Below the pieces are notes generated by a model. It worked only from the letters and a program-made list of their open reading frames with translations, searched no databases and was not told the DNA's origin. The position numbers were made by a program, and so were the translations under genes. A DNA stretch of 64,000 nucleotides from the NCBI GenBank assembly GCA_963678705.1, contig OY783214.1, forward strand, positions 13,454,001 to 13,518,000, read 5' to 3'. This stretch comes from Panorpa germanica (taxonomy: Eukaryota; Arthropoda; Insecta; Mecoptera; Panorpidae). Shown here one piece after another: positions 40,091-64,000 of this stretch (the stretch's first letter is position 1; the number at the start of each line of letters is the position of its first letter).

Positions 40091-43000
40091 ATGCCTTGTT
40101 CTGCGGTTACCTTGTCTTTGGCAACGATTTGTGCCGTGATTGCAGTGGCTTTGATGGCTATAGCATTTACAACAGACAACTGGCTTTATATTGAAGTAAA
40201 ACGTTCAAATATACAGGTAAATTTTTATTTACAATTATTTTATTGTATAATTAAAGGAAATGCATTAACTCGTACAATAATGCGCGTCCCAGAAAAGAAA
40301 TACTTGTTTAAGGTGTGTACAGTGACTTGAAAGATCAAATAGAAAACTTTCGTAAGACATAATTAACTTTCGTGTTTGGAATGTGTACGCCGATATATTA
40401 AATATTATTTTTAATTAACAAACAATACCATAACCATTCACTATATTTATTACAACTTTAAAATGTTTATTCGTCTTATTATTTTATACAAAATAAAATT
40501 ATTTACAAACAAAGCTAATTTTGCAATAATTAACTAATTAATAGCTCCTTTAATAATTTGTTGAAATGAATACAATGTCATTTACGTAGAATTTTCGAAA
40601 TATGTTTTCGTTCTTCCACTATTTTTCGATTGTGGTTTCTAATATATTTCTAAGAATCCTGCAAAAGGAAAAAAATCAGAAATTGTTGACTTCATCGGCT
40701 GCTTCGTCATGTGTGAATTTTTAATGCATTAAATCATGCTTATCTTTACATATGCTTCAATATAATAACATGCTTGCCTTCTACAATGCGACTCTTCAAA
40801 TATACCGTTGTATTTTTACCAGATATTATTTTTGTACCGTTTGTGGACTTTTGCTGCAGGCTATAATATAATTGTTTCGTTAATGAAAACACTAAGATTT
40901 AAGAGAATATACGCATTTTTTTCCAAGAAATATAGTTAAGAAGATAGTTAAGAAGATTTTAATGCTTATTTGGACATCAAACCTGCCCTAGCTTGTGGAA
41001 TCATAATTACTTTTTTAGATCAAATGTTATTAGTTATTATTACGGACATCTTTGGAATTGGAAATAATTTTAGTTAATATATTCTTAGTTAAAATCACAT
41101 TAATTAATTCATAACGAATTCAATAAGATTTTTGTTTCCTATATCAAATCAGATAGTATCTTTGACTGCATATTACTAACTCGAGCCATTGGCGCATTGT
41201 ATTGTTATTATTTATATTCACAAATACTATAGTATTTGAAGCAGTGCCGCAAAACCTTTTCGAGGTAACATAACACTTATGATTATAATCACAAGAAAAA
41301 CATACAAAAATTTTATTGAAAATTATTGATATTGATAGAGCTAGCTTCAGGAACACTTTTCATTTAATAGTTTTGCTCGTATAGTGTTTCGTTTCGTTCA
41401 ATTTCAAATATTAGCGTTTTTTTGAGATCATCATTCCCCACATCTCGTTAGCTGGTCACTTGACGTCTTCGGCAGACTACGCAAACCTTTCTTTGCTTTG
41501 GTTAGCGAGTTCCTTGACCCCATGGGGCTCTGTGCATGCGCTTGTGATGTTCGTACTCACATATCTACGTGTATGTTACCTTCTCATTGCCACACTATTT
41601 GAATAAATTAACAAAGTGTCTCCATACTTTATTTGCTGCTCACTAAACCAGATATTTTAAGCTAAGAAACTGTTAATAATTACTTATGCTGTGAGGTGTT
41701 TTATTCGGCGCGGCGTATTGATTATTTGAATCTCTTGAGGAATAATATTGAGTTTAAATGTAATTTTTTTAAATCTCTAATCATTTTAGTTGTTACAATA
41801 TCAATAAAATACAAGTAATTTATTATGATAATTTTTTGCAGCTTAGTTAATTTTAACTCTATAAGTAATTTAATGTGTTTTGTTATCAACATTTAATTTG
41901 AATGTTTACAGTTTTAATTTTGTTTTGTAGAAAAACATACTATAATGAATAATTATAATGATAATAAATTATAGGAAACGAATTAAGTACCTTTTAAATA
42001 ATTAAAAATGAAACTGTAATAAAATTATGAATTGTTATATTTTTTATACGATTTTGACTTAATATTCTATAACTGTATTATTTTTTTTTTCAATTTTAAA
42101 ATGATGTAATAATAATTTGATATATTTTAAATTGTTTAGATTATATAATTTAGTTGAAATAACAGTTATTTTAAAAGTAATTAATTGCTCCATTGGTAAC
42201 TTGCTCTTGCATATTCGATTTATTATTTACACCAAAACCCCGCTAAACATGGTTACGTATATGTAACGTTTATTTAACATAAAATAGTTTCTTTTACAAA
42301 TATTTTTAAAATTAATAAGATTACATAAGAAAAAGTATTTTTCGACACACATTTATGTTTTCTGACGGTAACAATGCTTACTATATTTTATATATGATTA
42401 TGATATAATTTAATATGAACATATAATGACAATGTAACAGAATCATGTTAAATTTCGTTTAATAATAAAACGTAACGTTAGGTAAAAAATATCTTTTTAC
42501 CAGTATACCAGTCCATCTAAGAATTTAGGCCCAACAATATATTTATTAAAAGAAAATAATTTCCGATTTCAAATAGAAACCTGTGAATTTCATGTCTCGA
42601 ACTGTACACCTTCAAAAGACATTGAACCTGTCACCTTCTAGCCAGTATTTATCACGTACTGTTTGTAGAAAACGAAAAATAAATAAAATCATTTAAACGC
42701 AGTAATTTGTGAAGAAAGTGTGAATCATAAATACCTGGTTGTTGTCGATATCGATAGAACCACCTGTGATTTTATCTTTTACTCATTGTCAGTGTTTTGT
42801 AGTAAGTTATAAATTTGTGAATGTCCTACTACAAAGGGTGGGATCACACTAAGGAAAAAACTGTCTTTAGAGAAGTTATAAAATTATCTTTTCTTTCTGC
42901 AAGAACAATAATATTAATTTTTTTGATTAATAAGAATTCATAATTTTTACCTGAAAATTCAGAGGTTTATATTTTCTGCGTTATGAATCCTGTTTCTTTC

Positions 43001-52000: not shown

Positions 52001-55000
52001 TTGAGTAATACTTTCCTAGTACAAATAATTTTACTTCTTAAAGAAGTGTTTATTTTTACATCATTTTGTTTAATTTTTGTATTTCATAAAACGAAATATG
52101 GTAGGAATAGTTTATTTTCCTTATCCTCTTTTTTTTAAAAAGATAATTAAATTTATATACGGAACATGTGAAAGTTTATGTATCTACTTAAAAACCATAC
52201 ATATTTAAAGTTAATAACATAATAAAAAAGTATTTTTAAATTTATTGTTAATTACAATTTCTTTAAATCGATAAAATTTCTCTATTCATGTATTCCTGTG
52301 TTTTACTGATTCATTGGTTTTCTCTTAGGATCTTATTTTAACTTGCAGTTCCCAATTTATAGTGTAGGGTAAGCTGAATGTGAATTTCTCTCTTTTTTAA
52401 GGGTCTTTTCGAATGAAATAAATTTTAATATATGCTTAGCGTTTTTATTTTTTTAAATATCCAAAAGTTGACGTAGCTATATCGATAATATTTTTCTTTT
52501 CCACAACCTTTGTAATATAATACTTCATGGAATACACAACTCAGCTGTTAGTAGTAAATGATGGTCTCTGTTATATTTAATCAAATAATTAAACGAGGTG
52601 TTTACTAAATAATACTAGCATTATAACTTGAAAACAACTGAAATTCTTAATGTAATATTTTCAAACAATTTTGTTTTCGATATAATAATGTATTCGTATT
52701 AATATTTATAATGAGTCACATGGCTGAGTTTACAGTCGTTCAGCGTAGAGTGGATATATTTAAATAAATCATTATTACTAATTCAGTGGTGTCGTAAGGA
52801 ACAGGGACGCACTAAGAGATTCTTAGTTAAATGGTTATTAAAGGCGTTTTCTATATATAATATAAGTAACTATAATATGTGACAAGGAGGGAAGGACGTG
52901 ACGTCACATTCTATCTAAATTCGAGTTGCAAAGAAAAGAAAAAAGAAGGCTAGAAGGAAAATATTTTTATTCAGAAATGTGACGTCACTATAGTGGTGGT
53001 TTAATTTGTGTCACTAACAATAAACTAACTTATCCGAAAATAAAGAAAACAATGCAAAAACGAGGGTAACATTTACTAGTCAATTCAGCTTTATTGTTGC
53101 ACCATGAGAGTGTAACATTACTCACAATCACGACCAATGTCTATTGCTGTCGAAAACTGTGTGCCATGAAAATGGTTCCCGTAATTTCTGGATAGAAAAA
53201 TTCGTCATTGTGTAGGAGTATTCCGATTCGGCACTGATTGTACCTTACACAACGCTCTAGGTCTTACGTTCGGGAACACCTTGGCAACCTTCAGCCCGCA
53301 ATTGTATTACCATGGAATGCAGACTAACTAGCTCCGCCTACTTCGTCATATATATCAGTATTCGTTCATTTAAAAAAATAACCGCATGTGTTCAACGTGC
53401 GCTTGACTAACTGTAATCTCGAATAAAATAAAACTAATTTACCTAAGAATACGAAGCTTGGTCTCTCTTGATGACGTATGCAGTGTGCGGTAAATCCGAT
53501 GGCTATCTGTACTGCATACGAGTTTTAATATAATTCTAAGTGTTAAAACACTGATCAACTCGTTTAGGTCCAGTTGATGCTGTGTGGTTTTCTGGTAATT
53601 GCCTTGTGTTTGGAATTAGGGCAAAAGAATTACCACCAGCTTATCTGAAAGTAATCCATAACGGAAATCTAGAAACTCTTATGCTATTTTTTTTTTGTTT
53701 CAAAGTGTAGCGTTATGTTACATATACATTTTGCGGTAATATTTATCGTTTAGATAGGGTTTATTGTTTATAATATTTTTTATGAAATACAGGGTGTGTC
53801 GCAATTAATGGTCACGTTTCATGACACTTAAATTTTATATGATTAATAATTATTTACAGTAGCTTAGTATTTCAAGGATAAATGGCGAAAGATCGTCGTC
53901 ATATTTCTAATCGCATTGTTGTTCATTATTTGTATAACTTTACTTGTTTTAACTAATTATCTCAACTATTTAATAACATGTATAATAAAAACATACGTTT
54001 GTCATCAAGGACGTACGCAAAAAAGGAACAAAAGTTTTCTTTCTTCTCTTTGACTTACACTAAGTAAATTGAAATTTGGTTTTTTGAAGATGTTTCAAAA
54101 CTTTACTTGAAATTCAAATTCAAACGAATCTAAATTTGTCCTGTATAAAAAATAGAAGTATCACAAATTTCATTCTATCCTATGCAAATTTATCTTAGAT
54201 TTCATTCGGTTCAGTGTAAGTCTGCTATAGTCCAGTATAAATTTGGAATATTAGTTTCGAGTCCCCCATTTGAAGTAGTCCCATACTATTGTCCACTTCC
54301 TCATAGGATAACACTTTAGTCTGAGTTGTGAACAATATCTGATATTTTAAAAATGTATATTATATATTCTAACAAAATTACCTATCATCTCAAATTTTAT
54401 TTCTTTTTTAAATAGTAGCAATATTATAGTAGTAAAGTAGTTAATACGCATTATTTATTATTCTTTTTTCCTTTCAGAGCTATGCTGGAAATACCAACGA
54501 TGCAGAACATCTTTTAGAAAACATGAATCAAAAATATTACTACTACACTAGAACCAAGGGACTTTTCAGAATTTGTTATCCAAAAGAGCGACCACCTACC
54601 GGTAAGCATTCGTCGACTTATCGTTACAGTGAGAATTATTAGCTTATACATTTTTTACGTCGAAATAAGTTGTATTTTTAGTTTTAAATTCTGTAATTGT
54701 AAATTATACTGTATGTTGATAAAATTGCCTATTACAATTTTTACGATTTTTTAATTAGGCACAATAAAAAAGAAGATATTTGCAAATGAGATTTAATAAT
54801 TTGAAATAACTGTATCTTCTTAAAAATCAATTTTTTTAAAACAAAATCATGTCAATTCAAAAAAATTGCTGACATACAATGTGATTATCAAAAGAGTAAT
54901 AGTTATTTGCATAAACAATTTGTTATACATATTTGGCCAGCTCCGAATACTGAAAATATTTTGAAATAAACTCAAATCCTTTTACAAAATATTTTACTGT

Positions 55001-58000
55001 ATTGCTCCTGGTCCGTTATTCACATACTGAACATAAAAATGTTAATCGTAGCCGCGGACGTGAGCATAATAATAAAAGAGGCTCTAAAGTCAAAGCAAAT
55101 AAGGAACAAAAATGTTGATACATTCCTTTTTTGCTAGTAGCAAGAAAATATACGTCAGACACCACTTCCGGTGGGTAATTAGAGCAAAAGTATAAATATA
55201 AATAATTATTCATATTATATAGTATTTAATGCATAGACATACCTAGTGCTCCCGGGGTTTGCAGAGCCCTAATAATTTTGAACTTGTAATAAGGAGCACG
55301 TTGGTCGGATATAGTCTATATCCGACAAACGTGCTGCTGGAATTTTTTATATAAATATACGTTTTCTAACATTAGTTAAAAATATTAGATAAAAAATATT
55401 ACACTAAATAATACATGAAATTATGCTTTGTGTTAGAGAATTAACTTTTTTGTTAGGGAAGGGCGTTGCTCAAATTACTGAACCAAATGAAATCAAACAA
55501 AAAGAGAAAAAGGTCTCACCGACCAAGAAGTTATATAGTTGGAAGAAACGAATGAATAAATATGATAAATCACGAAATATAATAGGATAATATGTACAGG
55601 TAAAAAAATATGTAAGGAGGATAATTTGCGTTGGAAAGGACACAGCACATAACGTCTACTTTTCAAAGTAAGACGGTTGCCCACTCTATATTTAGTACTT
55701 GCTCTGATCCATACAAAACAAAAACAGGCGATGAACATCGTAACACTATGTTCTGGCTTAACAAGTCAGTGATATGTATCACGAAGTGATCCCAGAAGTG
55801 GCTGTTATGTTGAAACTTATATAAAAAGTGGAAATCAATATAAATATTCATATAATTAAGTAGATACAATGATAAATAAATTCGATTACATTACAGGCTT
55901 TAATGTGATCTAGATATGTCAAAAACATGGCTAACAATTAAGCGACAAAACGAAATTCAAATTAAAAATATCTCCATCAATTTTTGTATATTTAATAAAA
56001 CAAAAACGCCAATAGCATGTTATTATTATTATTAGCATATAATTCAATAATAAAGTTAAAAAGACCACCATTAAAATTAGTTCACAACCCAATTACTATA
56101 TTTTCTTACTTTTACTAAAAGAATTATTATTTTCTTAATTAGTAGTTGTTTGCTACAGTAATTATACATAGTAACATAATTCTACATATATGTCATATTC
56201 TATAATTCTACATTTTATTCATAAAATAAAAAAACGCACATATCACAGTATGTGCTGTATGTTGGTGTAGTACAATATGAGCATGTACTTGTACAAGATG
56301 TAATTGCACGCTATTGTGCGGAGCCCTGACTCCGAGAATGAGGCCAGACCACGATTTCCCAGCGATGCACATTTTATGTATTCTTTTAAAAACATATATT
56401 ATATACACCTTTTCTTTTAGTATAAAAAAATTGATAAACTATAATTAACATCACTATACTGTGTCAGAGTGTATGACCTTTTTCTTTGTACTATCATTAT
56501 GCATTCTAACATTAAAAGTTTGTTATGATTCTCGCGGAGAAACCGGATTTATCCTAAGGTTATCTATAGGTCTCACCAGGTCGCAACTAAAACTTGTACA
56601 ATTCGGTATATACAGAGTGAAACAAACATAGGTCTGGAATATAATGCCAGTTTCACACCAGAGAGATAGTATTGAAAACAGTTTCGTTGTCTAAAAACAA
56701 AACAAAATGATGTTTCGTTTTATTTTAAAATAGTTTTTTAATAGTTTTTCGAAAACAGGCTGTTCACACTGAACAGACTGGTTTTGTTTATAATGTTTTT
56801 CTGTGTGTTCCATAAAAATTATAAACATGATAAACAACAACTGACAAGCGCAAATGTTCACAAAAAACAAAACTGCGTGTTCAAACCTAGTGACTAAAAA
56901 ACAACAACAAACGTGTCGATCTTACCGACTCCAGATGAGAATGTGTTTTGGTTACTAAAACAGCAACAAAAATGTTTTAAGAGCCGTCTCTTTGGTGTAA
57001 ACATTGATGTTTTTGTTCGTGTTTTATTGAACTGTCTCTCTGGTGTGAAACTGATAACTTATACACTCTTCACGTTCTACACCACCGCTGCCCGATATTT
57101 TAGAGGTAGAGATGTTGTCACTGTAGGTATGTAACTGCCCCTACATAATCTATCCCTTGCGCTTCTTCTCTTCCACGCCCTATTCAATAAAGGCAATGCG
57201 CTTGATACGATCAATATGGACCTGCGAACGTTTACATTAATGCAACGAACTATGGTACAACGAACTTTCAGCAAATTACGCATTTATCTAATATTATCAA
57301 CAACCATTTGAATAAAAAGATGTGGGTACTCTAACCTTCCATATAAATTTTATCACATTGTATACTGTGTTCTATATTTTAATACATTAAGGTTAAATTT
57401 AAAATACATTTTATTTACATTGTTCTCTCTAATTTGTTTAATTGTTTGTGTTAATTACAAGTAAATAAAGCACAACAATCTCCCATGTCAACATACCGCA
57501 CGACACGGTACCTCGTATTGTAACGCAATGTACAATCCGTTCTCTAGGTCTAACAATATTCTAATCTGCATACTTGATGTATCCGCATCCGGTCCATTTT
57601 GTTTGGTAACCTATTAAGCCACATTGTTTGTGTTTTTAAAGCCAGCATCAATGGCAACAGCAATGATAATAGTGATGTCGATCTCAATTTAATTTGCAGT
57701 GTAATATAGAGTAACTTGCTCTAACTGTTTTAAATATTTATAATTAGATATTGTACTATTTCTTTGTACAAGTATATACAGTATATATACATTATAACGT
57801 TAACCGTTATTTGAAATGAGAACGTGTTAATTATTCAAAATATTTGATGCAGTAATTAAATATTATTTAAATTAATGACGCTATTAATAATACAATTGAT
57901 TTAGAATAATGACAAATAACGATAATGGGGTTGTGAACATTGATATATGTAGGTGACGGTTAGGACCTCAGATGTCCGATGGTTTGGCCAACTTAAAATA

Positions 58001-61000
58001 CAGAAATAAACAAATAATTTTGTTGTAAATACATTTACAATAGTCAGTGTGCTGCGCTTATTTGTCTAAACATGAGTTGCAATTTGATGATTCTCTAGTC
58101 TCCCATACGACTAGCCTAGCATTAGTACGTAACATTTACAACAAGCAATAAAGAAACTAGAAAGTGTAGGTTAACATCTAATGACTTTAAATTGTACGAT
58201 TTCCATTTGATTAAAATTGTTTAGCGTACATGTGAAGAGGTAATTGAATGATTAATAAGAATTGAAATTGTTGTTATGTAAGCTATAAAATAATACGTTA
58301 CGTTTACACAATTAAATTGAATTGTACGAATACATTCTGCTTTGATTCTATAGAAAATGTTATTAACAAAGCGAATATAATATAATTATTTAATATCGTC
58401 TAAAAATAGTAGATAAGAAAGTTCATTTAGCTATACGGCGATTTTAATTGTGATGTAATTTGTTGCAGTTCAAACCTATCTGTCCCCTGTCGAAACTCAC
58501 TGTATGAACATCGATTATTACATCCCTGATGCACACGACGTTCTCCGCGACTTTAAGGAAGACGCCATGGCTCGCCTCCACATGGGACGAGCTACTATTG
58601 CACTGTTCATAGTTGCATTTGCAACGGTATTTGCTGCATTCTGGACTGGCGTCGCAGGTTGTTGGAAACGAAGCCCCGGCAATATCACCGCGACTGCTAT
58701 TTTAATGTTATTTGCCTGTATGTCTCTTTACCAAATAATATGAATTTTTATGTAAGAATGTTTCAAGAAAGAATATATTTTTAGGTTTACTAAGTGCTGG
58801 TGCTATGGGGCTTTGGCATGGAGTTGAATACTACGAAAAGGAGAAATCAGTTGGAGAGGAATATTATCAACAATGGAGTGATGTAAGTAACACTACAGGT
58901 TTACAAATAGTCTTGGAAGGACTTGAGTAATTTAAATAGTAATGCATACTTTTGTATTCATAAAAGGTAATTTTCATTGCATAAAATTGTTTTGTAAAAC
59001 AATTCTATCTAGAATTCGGGGTCAATTCCTAAATCAGCGCTATACTATTCTTGATTTGGTTATTATAATGAAAATAATTTCGATATTTAATTAGTAACTT
59101 ATAAGGCAACGATATGGTGGAAATATAAAATATAAAAAAAAGCAGAAGGGCCTGCGCTATACTGGAAATATAATAAGAGCACGCAGTAGAGATAAAATTA
59201 TACAAAACAAACTTTAGCGGTTTTTTTTAACATGTTATATCAATTTTTTGACAAAATGATAAAGGTAAGTCTGTTTATGATCGTTACCCTGTAAACTAAG
59301 ATGTATCATTTAGGTAAATATTACATAAACTTGCTTAGCAGAATGTGATTTTTTTGTTTAAATTACTTATTTAGATATTTTGCAATTTTTATTAAAGTTC
59401 TAAATTGCAAATCGGAAAAAACCCCATAGTCTAAATTTTATATTTTCCCTACCATCACTTTTTTTCATATATACAGGATGTTGAAAATGAGAAAATAAAT
59501 AGAGAAACAAGAGGATGGAGTAGGTATTTAATTTTGTTATAAATACATACAGCCTATAGAACTAATTGGAATATTTGTCCTGAGCAGAATCCTGTTCGCA
59601 GAGTTCGAATACTGTTGTTATGTTAATCATTTTCTCGACTTATATCTTATGATTTAAATCTAACTTAAATAATATTATTTATAATTATATTTCGAATGCT
59701 GTAACTTTAAGTTCACTGCAGATTTTACGTTCGAACACATCAATTTGGTATAGCTGGAGCTACGGTTTAGCATGGCTCTCTTGCGCAGCATGTTTTACAT
59801 CCAGTATATTATTGATGTTTGGAGCTCGTTGTTTATCTGTCGAGCGTGAAGCAGAACGTCCAACAAACCTTCAATATGTTTTACCAGGTAAAGAAAATAT
59901 CATCTATAAATCATCTAACAATATCTTTTATTTCTATTTCATATTCGCCTGCTTTTGCAACTTGCGCATCTTTAACAATATATACTACACATATGGGGCT
60001 ATCTATTGGGGGGCTATGATTCACTAGGTTTTACGTGATAATACTCGAATAATGTACGACTGGTCCTACGTTGTTGCTTGGGTGGGAGTTGGGAGCTCCC
60101 TCGTATCCGCGGTTCTTCTGTCAGGGGCTGCGGTCTGTCTACGTGGAGAACGGGAACGTGAAGATGCGTTCAACTTGCAGTACCTTATGCCTGGTAATTT
60201 ATTTCTTAATGGAAGTTTTATTGGCTTTAACGATTATTCGCTTCAGCATTCACCAGACTTTTTTTATTAATAATTATTATAAACATTTCTCTATTGGTTC
60301 ATAACATTTTCTAATAAATAAATTTATTAATAAAAAGTAACAAACTTAATGAAAGAGTGAATAGTACCCGAAGCCAAATATTACTAAAAACTTTACTAAT
60401 TTATATATGTTCAAAAAGAATATGTATCAAAATAACTTATTAGTTGTCAACTAATAGAAAAATAAGAATTGTACATATATAAATAATACTTGAAAAGCAT
60501 GTTACCTAAACCCAAAGAATCATATCATAAATATTAATTTTCAATGACATATTTAACAGTAGCTCCTATAGATTTATTGTGGCGTCTTTTATTGTTGTAG
60601 AAAATATATGTACATATATAAATATATGTAATACGAATTATTTAAGTTCTTCGTAACAAATGTTAGTAATTGAAAGTATTTTTTATTCAATTATGAAATT
60701 AAACTCACTTTTGCTCTATAGCATTAGGTGAATTTGTTCTTCTCTGTATATAATATATTTTGTTTATATCTTGTAAATATATTCGTATAATTTTTAAAAA
60801 TATTGTAAATAATTGTTGTAATAAATAACATTTAATGTCCAGTTTATGAACCGCTACTTCATAATTACAAAAATTATATAATTTAACCATTTATTTTAAT
60901 TAATTTGAATGAAATACTTTAAATGAATAATTCAAATGTTGAAACTTTAGAAATGGTACTACAATCAAAAATAAATTTACTAAAAACAATTAAGAATCTA

Positions 61001-61174
61001 TATATTGTTATTAATTTTTATGTTTGTGTTTGTAATATTATGTATAATTATTTTGCAGTGTACCCCCAGAAACAAGCTCAGTACGCCTACGCTAGTTACC
61101 CACCGCCCCAAGCAGCATACACTGGACCTTATTACCACGGCTCACAATATGGCCCATATAATGGCAACTATTAG
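40091..61174 (+). CDS. Claudin/PMP22/TARP-like four-helix membrane protein
   Basis: Six coding exons: 40091-40216, 54478-54601, 58469-58717, 58785-58882, then either 59722-59887 or 60028-60193, then 61059-61174, giving about 292 residues. Helix 1 is in exon 1 ('SLATICAVIAVALMAIAF'). Next comes a long first extracellular loop with the family's W...GL-x3-C...C pattern ('TDNWLY', 'KGLFRIC', 'VETHC'). Helix 2 ('ALFIVAFATVFAAFW') and helix 3 ('AILMLFACLLSAGAMGLW') follow, and helix 4 lies in exon 5. The cytoplasmic tail is Tyr/Pro/Gln-rich ('YASYPPPQAAYTGPYYHG'). This layout fits the claudin/PMP22/calcium-channel-gamma superfamily. I cannot say whether it serves junctions, channels or receptors. 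Intron 1 is about 14.3 kb. The TAG at 61172-61174 is followed by AATAAA at 61229 and 61736. Confidence 0.9.
43861..44061 (-). other. Small open frame inside intron 1, unrecognised
   Basis: On the minus strand a frame of about 65 codons ends in a TAG/TGA-bounded interval. Its peptide is helical and charged ('HKVKKVDDERLKSFILVSRN', 'KSEIQLEVKDQLRALQKLS'). The DD-x-L-x-F/L spacing faintly recalls the C-terminal BESS motif of MADF-type proteins, some of which derive from transposons. A TGA lies just upstream and the first real ATG is internal. It may be the tail of a decayed transposon-encoded or retroposed gene, or chance. Confidence 0.2.
44332..44385 (+). repeat. Shared repeat end, copy 2 (partner at 6929-6974)
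   Basis: It begins 'caggggccatattcctgag' and continues 'tgttgcgaacaatggtcg'. See copy 1 for the match and the reasons the class is uncertain. Confidence 0.5.
45192..45414. mobile_element. MITE family A, copy 2 (about 223 bp)
   Basis: The left end 'tatagtcaaaatcacgatag' and the right end 'cgaactctcgtaattagaac' are inverted relatives of the termini at 2278 and 2507. The interior shares 'agaggttataagagcggtat' and 'aataagtgagtcagtgcttt'. It lies within intron 1 of the tetraspan gene. Confidence 0.8.
47769..47910 (+). repeat. Shared repeat, copy 2 (partner at 24650-24730)
   Basis: It contains 'cacgtaggtgagtgaggt', 'acgtaccttttgcacctgct' and, about 80 bases later, 'cagttttgctaaaacg'. An extra stretch separates the last box from the others compared with copy 1. 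Confidence 0.45.
47951..48168. mobile_element. MITE family A, copy 3 (about 218 bp)
   Basis: Closest to copy 2 in its interior ('agaggttataagagcggtat'), with the left end 'tatagtcaaaatcacgatag' identical to that copy. The right end ('actctcgtaacttcaaccat') has drifted. It is inside intron 1. Confidence 0.8.
49054..49692 (+). mobile_element. MITE family B, copy 4 (about 639 bp)
   Basis: Full-length, with termini 'aatgggcttgtgtcct' and 'aggacacaagcccatt'. It serves well as the reference copy for the family because both ends and all interior boxes are present. It is inside intron 1 of the tetraspan gene, in the plus orientation. Confidence 0.87.
50555..50616 (-). repeat. tRNA-derived SINE-like fragment, copy 4
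   Basis: On the minus strand 'gacgacacagtgggctgttg' is followed by a strong box B, 'agttcgattcccgaacc', and 'agaattatatt'. It lacks the 'agcatttatgc' segment that copies 1-3 carry between the two boxes, so it is either a shorter subfamily or a deletion. Confidence 0.45.
51173..51780 (+). mobile_element. MITE family B, copy 5, left end truncated (608 bp)
   Basis: The family's first ~30 bases are missing and similarity begins at 'gatttttcaattgttgattg'. From there it is collinear with copy 4 to the right terminus, which reads 'agacacaagcccgtt' with two changes. It is in intron 1. Confidence 0.82.
52899..52987. promoter_or_regulatory. Two CRE-type TGACGTCA palindromes
   Basis: Perfect TGACGTCA sites lie at 52899-52906 and 52980-52987. 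They sit within a larger inverted pair ('gtgacgtcacatt' and 'aatgtgacgtcac') separated by about 60 bases of purine-rich DNA. TGACGTCA is the consensus for CREB/ATF-type bZIP dimers. Position in intron 1, about 1.5 kb before exon 2, allows an enhancer role, but the paired layout may equally be the ends of a small inverted-repeat element. Confidence 0.35.
55295..55335. repeat. Near-perfect 19-bp-arm palindrome
   Basis: Arms 'agcacgttggtcggatata' and 'tatatccgacaaacgtgct' pair with a single mismatch around a 3-base loop. It lies in intron 2 of the tetraspan gene, about 0.7 kb after exon 2. The loop is too short for a microRNA precursor. It could extrude as a cruciform. Confidence 0.85.
56648..57053. 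mobile_element. MITE family D (406 bp)
   Basis: Terminal inverted repeats: 'cagtttcacaccagagagat' on the left, mirrored by 'ctgtctctctggtgtgaaac' plus TG on the right. CAG...CTG ends recall hAT elements, but the flanking 8 bases do not match, so the class is open. The interior contains a 'gttcacactgaacagactg' box. A right-half fragment lies at 18036-18157. Confidence 0.75.
59722..59887 (+). CDS. Tetraspan exon 5a (alternative helix 4)
   Basis: An exon of 166 bp between 'cactgcag' and G|GTAAAG, entered in phase 0 and left in phase 1. It encodes 55 residues from 'ILRSNTSIWYSWSYGLAW' through helix 4 to 'NLQYVLP'. It has an N-T-S glycosylation sequon in the predicted second extracellular loop. 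It is a homologue of exon 5b, with about 26 of 55 residues identical and no gaps. Splicing both 5a and 5b together would shift the frame of exon 6, so only one can be used per mRNA. Confidence 0.85.
60028..60193 (+). CDS. Tetraspan exon 5b (alternative helix 4)
   Basis: An exon of 166 bp between 'ttcactag' and G|GTAATT, in the same phases as 5a and separated from it by a 140-bp intron. It encodes 'VLRDNTRIMYDWSYVVAW', a different helix 4 ('GSSLVSAVLLSGAAV') and 'FNLQYLMP'. The sequon of 5a is lost (N-T-R), and helix 4 lacks the Cys pair of 5a. Conserved W, Y, 'FNLQY'/'TNLQY' and Glu/Arg positions and the intact splice sites argue that it is functional and not a decayed duplicate. Confidence 0.85.
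60194..61058 (+). other. Last intron of the tetraspan gene
   Basis: 865 bp of AT-rich DNA between exon 5b and the final exon, ending in 'ttattttgcag'. I looked for a third version of exon 5 and found none. Open frames here run through the intron into exon 6 and are not separate genes. Confidence 0.7.
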
Positions 61175-62775: not shown

Positions 62776-64000
62776 ATGCAAACTGACGCCGATGATACAT
62801 GGTTAACAAATTGGGAACAACAATGCATTGATGCTGTCGAACATGAACCAGACTATGAAAAACATCTGACTGCAGAAAAAGACTCAACACACAGTTCTTC
62901 TTGGGCTGTCTTTCAAGATTCAGCTACTTCAATAGCACAACTTTACAGAGGTAGGTAGTGCCCCAAAATATATTTAGACCTTCATATGGCCTTTTATTTC
63001 TTCAAGGACGCCGACATTTTGTCTGTATATTGATCAGCTGTTTGGGTGTGCTGCTTCTGTTGTGATTCTTATTTGAAAATATTTTCTTTTTCTTTGCAGA
63101 CCGCCATTCTGGAGATGCGGGGGCTCTTTGGTTATCTTTCCAGACAGCAGCGGGGACAGTAACAACACTTTATAAAGGCATGACATTACATATTAGTCAT
63201 TATTTATTTGTAGTATGTATTTCACAATAGTGTAATGAAATACTATTCAAGAAATCCGCAGTTTTATATTGTATGAAATTCAATATAAACAACTTCTTTA
63301 AAGTTTGATAATATATAAACGCTTTTATAATATGTGCCCTAGTTAATTTTGTTAATGTAACGATCTCCTTTAGGTTAGAGTTAGAGAACGTAAAAAAACA
63401 GTTTTATTAATGCACATTGAACTAAAACCTTTTTCTTAACAATATTATGAAGATTATTTTTTAAGTTTTTGCATACTGTTAATATATACAGATGTTTTCT
63501 TGGTTATAATATGCGATGTACTTATCTATGTTAAATTGATTACTTACTTGCTATGCATATAGATATGTAATGAATTGTTTTTAAGCTTAATCGTAATAAA
63601 CACAGTATTTTATTTGTAATAGATTCTGAAATTAATAACATAAGACTATTAGTTTATTCCATATCTATAATATATTATTATGTATTTACTCTTCAAATAG
63701 TTAGTATAATTACTAATTAGTGCCTTGCAACTCACAGTTTGTTTTTGTTTTCAAAAGAAAGTTTTGATCTTGAATGAGTTAGAAGTAACGAACTTTTTAT
63801 TGAGTTTGTAATAATTGAAATATTGATATTTATAGAATCTTGTGAAGGTATGAGAAGGACAAATGAATTAGCCTTGCAGTGTGGTTATCAAAGGCGAACT
63901 AAAGACATAATTAGTTGGGCAAGAAAAAAACGACGCTCAATACGTCGGGAGGATCTCCTGGCATATTTAGCTGGAAAACCACCACCTCCTAGAGCAGCTA
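62776..64000 (+). CDS. HAPSTR1: HAPSTR1/C16orf72 family protein (3'-partial)
   Basis: Homologue of HAPSTR1 (C16orf72, UPF0472), a small nuclear stress-response protein known in mammals to partner the ubiquitin ligase HUWE1. Exons 62776-62950, 63100-63177 and 63836 to the window end join in frame. The visible 139 residues contain the family's two related blocks, 'WAVFQDSATSIAQLYRDR' and 'WLSFQTAAGTVTTLYKES', then 'LQCGYQRRTKDIISWARKKR' and 'SIRREDLLAYLAGKPPPPRA', where the human protein has very similar basic and proline-rich segments. The N terminus ('TWLTNWEQQCID') also fits. Intron 1 is GT-AG and 149 bp. Intron 2 must begin with GC (AAAG|GCATGA) to keep the reading frame. The gene continues beyond the window. 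Confidence 0.93.

Follow-up and report, generated by a model that had tools for sequence, protein, structure and literature searches.

The question raised by this locus is whether two adjacent exons near the end of a claudin-like gene, 5a and 5b, are used one at a time, so that a single gene would yield two membrane proteins. An earlier note had suggested, from the DNA letters, that their splicing is probably mutually exclusive. The window, by which we mean the whole stretch of 64,000 nucleotides analyzed (C11:13454001-13518000), belongs to a genome of 464 Mb in 249 contigs.

The gene and its claudin-like family

The coding part of the gene spans about 40091-61174, or 21 kb, and its exons join in frame (Table 1). 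With 5a alone or with 5b alone, the predicted protein is 292 residues long. The claudin-like character claimed for it is borne out by the PF13903 (Claudin_2) profile, which matches the form with 5a at E 3.8e-34 and the form with 5b at E 1.5e-35 (bit scores of 118.6 and 123.2, where the cut-off is 29.1), the queries being the 249-residue forms without exon 1. Hydropathy gives four hydrophobic segments in both full isoforms. Read by eye, loop 1 has the pattern DNW ... GLFRIC ... THC, in which F replaces the second W of the claudin loop 1 consensus as printed in the relevant part of PMC5521874, W-G/NLW-C-C. A comparison of the 5b form without exon 1 to solved structures returned two matches up to E 10, the best at 1.1; both are oxidoreductases and were deemed chance.

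The start of the gene is less firmly placed. The interval 40091-40216 is probably the first coding exon, being the sole candidate, under the filters used, in a scan of 200-54477 for a Met and a hydrophobic helix (mean above 1.9) with a phase-0 donor, and being overlapped by an independent PF13903 match that begins at the profile's first position. This match (profile positions 1-73 at 40136-40408, E 0.005) is below the cut-off when taken alone, and it runs through three stops past exon 1. In-frame ATGs lie at 40091 and 40154.

Table 1. Coordinates of the coding exons and of the intron between 5a and 5b, as positions in the window
Feature	Position	Strand	Description
Exon 1, coding part (probable)	40091..40216	+	start Met, helix 1, start of loop 1 (MPCSAVTLSLATICAVIAVALMAIAFTTDNWLYIEVKRSNIQ)
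Exon 2	54478..54601	+	loop 1, GLFRIC (claudin W-GLW-C-C-like); AG/GT, open frame, inside PF13903 match
Exon 3	58469..58717	+	remainder of loop 1, helix 2, start of helix 3; PF13903 match
Exon 4	58785..58882	+	remainder of helix 3, most of loop 2; in PF13903-matching protein
Exon 5a	59722..59887	+	variant a: end of loop 2, helix 4, start of tail
Intron 5a-5b	59888..60027	+	140 nt; G runs at 59995 and 60008, both at most 33 nt from the 5b acceptor
Exon 5b	60028..60193	+	variant b: end of loop 2, helix 4, start of tail
Exon 6, coding part	61059..61174	+	common cytoplasmic tail, Y/P/G-rich, ends NGNY-stop

Several further features were observed in the window. Intron 2 holds a MITE-like element of about 420 bp at 56640-57062, with 18-nt terminal inverted repeats (AGTTTCACACCAGAGAGA at 56649 and TCTCTCTGGTGTGAAACT at 57035). 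All 40 scored candidates in its own genome, of 2871, match this element, at 83-88% identity besides the element itself, and it probably belongs to a high-copy family. The same intron has a palindrome, GTCGGATATAGTCTATATCCGAC, seen by eye at 55304-55326. The start of the next gene lies on the plus strand at 62776-64000 (MQTDADDTWLTNWEQQCIDAVEHEPDYEKHL..., by eye), and we take this gene to resemble the C16orf72/HAPSTR1 family. A search of both strands of the window (1-64000) with Rfam gave no match at the gathering threshold.

Resemblance, age and probable exclusivity of exons 5a and 5b

The basic description of the pair given in the earlier note stands. Both exons are 166 nt long, enter in phase 0, leave in phase 1 and are flanked by AG/GT sites, and the claimed ungapped identity of about 47% corresponds to 26 of 55 residues with no gap. 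The BLASTP alignment of the pair covers all 55 residues, with 26 identities and 34 positives at E 1e-18. Their BLOSUM62 score is 135, compared with a mean of -51, a standard deviation of 15 and a maximum of 35 over 100,000 shuffles; at z = 12 the resemblance is therefore far above chance. This amounts to 46-48% of what the exons score against themselves (295 and 283). The published prediction defaults for mutually exclusive exons, as they appear in the part of PMC3923563 used here, are 15% for score and a length difference of 20 residues; the pair score exceeds these defaults, which supports the mutually exclusive reading. The motif W-S-Y before helix 4 is kept in both exons. Of four paralogue segments aligned from the same genome, three have W-S-F or W-S-Y at the matching site and one has neither. 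An ungapped, full-length scan of both strands at 40000-62000 found no third copy of the exon (runner-up score 12 vs 135), and the 472-base 5a-5b stretch, searched as DNA against its own genome, matched only itself.

The pattern of substitution between 5a and 5b bears on their age, protein-level selection being judged here from the pair itself alone. Synonymous differences (31.9 over 39.0 sites, pS 0.82) are saturated and nonsynonymous differences (52.1 over 126.0 sites, pN 0.41) are not; dN is 0.61 by NG86, and dS is not computable. Because synonymous change is saturated while nonsynonymous change is not, both copies appear to be old and to have been kept as protein, and an old duplication with both copies retained as protein is most likely. 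Different codons are used at 16 of the 26 identical residues. Matches at codon positions 1, 2 and 3 number 26, 33 and 22 of 55, compared with codon-shuffled means of 13.7, 14.0 and 13.9, and values as high were reached in 0, 0 and 53 of 5000 shuffles. The slight excess at third positions was counted against mutually exclusive use of the pair.

These figures weigh on the possibility that only one exon is in use now, the other being a relic or spliced at noise level, which we consider improbable. The G-rich stretch before 5b and the composition of its acceptor, with pyrimidines at 7 of 17 positions from -20 to -4, could be taken as signs of a poorly used exon, but this is weak since the acceptor of exon 4 has 6 of 17. 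For the same reason a weak 5b acceptor was set aside as an explanation, exon 4 having no alternative here. Against single-exon use, neither exon contains a stop and both have kept their splice sites despite the values of pS and pN given above, whereas an unused copy of such age should have decayed, and the 5a and 5b forms each score well with the family profile.

The earlier note had argued that using both exons would shift the reading frame, and this argument holds and proves stronger than was claimed. The joined exons read ...VLPGFT-stop, with a TGA at 60036-60038, the fourth codon past the join, and the product ends after 257 residues. Skipping both exons gives a 250-residue product with a frame-shifted tail and loses helix 4. 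Of the four possible combinations, the two one-exon products alone read exon 6 in frame and retain helix 4. Exclusivity is thus enforced at least at the level of the product, double inclusion meeting a stop and double skipping losing helix 4. Some exons that satisfy the prediction criteria are in fact constitutive tandem exons, according to the portion of PMC3923563 cited here. In this gene, two constitutive tandem exons are very unlikely, because of the stop on joint inclusion and the loss on joint skipping; only the one-exon products are full claudins.

The same two truncated products could be the point of the arrangement, with joint inclusion or joint skipping as a regulated means of lowering protein output, either in addition to the making of two proteins or in its place. 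The early ends at 257 and 250 residues, the latter frame-shifted and without helix 4, would suit such a switch. However, a poison exon has no need to preserve a helix and a family motif along 55 codons, as both exons do, and we hold this possibility to be very improbable. Least probable of all is a third C-terminus made by 5a with the following intron retained: the 5a frame indeed meets no stop from 59722 until a TAG at the intron's 3' end, the intron itself being open for 46 codons, but 45 open codons would arise by chance with probability 0.106 by the intron's own composition (0.013 by that of the flanking introns), and the 140-nt intron has neither AATAAA nor ATTAAA.

Mutually exclusive splicing of 5a and 5b is the best explanation of the pair, and we hold it with high confidence, judging from the sequence; the proposal of the earlier note is supported by the one-exon-only frame and by the selection pattern that remains after synonymous saturation. 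An old tandem duplication of the fifth coding exon would have produced the homologous, equal-length and phase-matched 5a and 5b, and each productive mRNA would carry one or the other. The two resulting proteins, each of 292 residues, would be distinguished by the final part of loop 2, by helix 4 and by the juxtamembrane tail. Both exons would be in use, and the choice between them might be regulated by tissue or stage.

What the proposed swap changes and how the choice might be made

The earlier note had the choice of exon altering helix 4 and the second extracellular loop. This holds for helix 4 and for the end of loop 2, but most of that loop is encoded by the shared exon 4. According to hydropathy windows, exon 5 contributes 15-18 residues of the end of loop 2, then helix 4 and 18-21 residues of the tail, so the swapped segment also includes the start of the cytoplasmic tail. 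Both isoforms have in common helices 1-3, loop 1, the greater part of loop 2 and, at the C-terminal end, 38 residues.

A contrast in cysteines had also been drawn, with two near helix 4 in 5a and none in 5b. Reading the translations directly, we find three Cys in 5a (exon positions 21, 24 and 37) and one in 5b (position 37). Cys 21 and Cys 24 are therefore absent from 5b as claimed, but 5b does have a Cys, which 5a shares. The two that only 5a has fall within the predicted helix rather than the loop, and the shared Cys 37 is at the cytoplasmic end of the helix. The sequon difference is as described, N-T-S in 5a vs N-T-R in 5b. The 5a sequon begins at exon position 5 and the hydrophobic core at exon position 16, about 11 residues on. 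Glycosylation fails below a certain distance between sequon and helix, and 11 residues is near that distance. With so short a spacing, glycosylation of the 5a sequon is doubtful, and we treat it as uncertain.

The exchange might tune side-by-side assembly in the membrane rather than selectivity through loop 1. We put forward, tentatively and as somewhat less than an even prospect, an old regulated switch by which helix 4 and the last part of loop 2 are exchanged and loop 1 stays constant, the two forms packing differently with their neighbors, perhaps according to the barrier of each tissue.

Pairing of RNA across the introns, which the earlier note had raised in connection with the pair, is not supported as a selector of 5a or 5b. 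In focused duplexes of the splice-site regions, 41 or more of 200 shuffles did equally well for each of ten site-target pairs, and a fold of the whole 901-nt region gave z = -0.53, with 7 of 20 shuffles as good. At coarse scale, the 140-nt intron and the downstream intron beat 23 of 24 shuffles; the other five of the six region pairs were unremarkable. A scan for inverted repeats yielded 63 pairs in 2.8 kb. Among the pairs listed is one with 17-nt arms that are 82% complementary, 60015-60031 and 60508-60524, of which one arm lies across the 5b acceptor; we discounted this pairing because 41 of 200 shuffles were as good for the 5b acceptor vs the downstream intron.

Nor does the length of the 140-nt intron by itself force exclusion. 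An intron of this length should be spliceable, so steric exclusion by a short intron is not required. U12-type sites are not suggested by the donors, which read by eye as GTAAAG, GTAATT and GTAAGT. Within this intron, which is otherwise AT-rich, a near-tandem GGGGCTAT / GGGGGGCTAT occurs at 59995-60017, shortly 5' of the 5b acceptor.

Two G runs of at least 4 lie within 33 nt upstream of the 5b acceptor, as was noticed after the fact; the plus strand of the 64-kb window has 46 such runs, or about 0.03 per 40 nt. Splicing proteins that bind G runs are a known class. They are candidates for regulators of 5b, and we regard them as a lead.

Relatives and known systems

A protein search for paralogues in the same genome gave five matches, all of them the gene's own exons. 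The PF13903 profile reached further, with 14 matches: four in the window gene, seven on C9 at 16.557-16.570 Mb, two on C6 at 9.79 and 9.83 Mb and a weak one on C4 (E 9.6). As a control, the same profile matched in one of 14 genomes, that of E. coli, below the cut-off. The matches on C9 appear as a tandem cluster of three Claudin_2 genes on the minus strand (C9:16556500-16572499). Sinuous, Megatrachea and Kune-kune are septate-junction claudins of Drosophila, as stated in the part of PMC4582180 drawn on here, and the three C9 genes may correspond to them. The window gene is a separate member, distinct from this cluster.

Four of the paralogue matches (C9:16561239-16561574, C9:16568949-16569119, C9:16557732-16557956 and C6:9786033-9786404) have their helix-4 region in one open frame with no stop. 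The intron that precedes helix 4 may thus be special to the window gene, as far as these matches indicate. Scans of two non-insect collections with exon 3 found no orthologue, which was counted against the mutually exclusive reading. In viral contigs there were no relatives among 42 pattern matches; in genome contigs, one of 196 was considered, a cyanobacterial contig whose match is broken by an in-frame stop and which has no convincing second exon, and it was put down to chance.

The kind of arrangement is already known, and the claudin-like gene adds one more tandem exon pair that is probably mutually exclusive. In the sections of PMC9741552 that bear on them, tandem duplicated exon substitutions are given for 154 D. 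melanogaster genes (1.1%), with plasma-membrane proteins enriched, and the present pair resembles these in consisting of adjacent homologous exons with probable alternative use. The words claudin, tight junction, septate, CLDN and PMP22 are absent from the main text of that paper, as is the word claudin from the main texts of PMC3923563 and PMC3303723. No title or abstract on mutually exclusive exons in an insect claudin was found in the open-access literature, an absence that is weak.

If transcripts confirm the two forms, the gene would offer a natural experiment on the role of helix 4 in a claudin-like protein, the forms being identical elsewhere. The portion of PMC4582180 consulted notes a lack of evidence for tissue-distinct paracellular permeability in invertebrates, and suggests that insect claudins act in cis only. 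This cis-only view could be tested directly with a splice switch limited to helix 4 and the parts flanking it. Otherwise the pair is a point of annotation, in that a gene model with both exons would be wrong, or one with a single exon incomplete.

Among known systems, exons ME-18a and ME-18b of arthropod N-Cadherin are alike in that an exon pair covers the transmembrane segment of an insect adhesion protein. As set out in the passages of PMC2655722 on this pair, these exons encode 68-70 residues, are mutually exclusive and are conserved in usage; all eight predicted N-Cadherin mRNAs were detected in Drosophila. The 18a and 18b forms show graded homophilic interactions in a cell line, yet the authors observed no difference between them in localization in neurons, and the pair is absent from Apis (PMC2655722). 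The case warns that a helix swap need not show a visible effect. Unlike the product of the window gene, N-Cadherin is a single-pass cadherin of unrelated sequence (PMC2655722).

Closer in family is mammalian claudin-10, in which, on the account in the cited part of PMC5521874, one claudin gene likewise gives two proteins through a switched segment, claudin-10a and claudin-10b, and the forms differ in ion selectivity. In claudin-10, however, the switched part is helix 1 with loop 1 (73 residues, encoded by exon 1b in the b form; PMC5521874), whereas the window gene would switch helix 4 along with the last part of loop 2 and the first part of the tail through internal tandem exons, at the opposite end of the protein.
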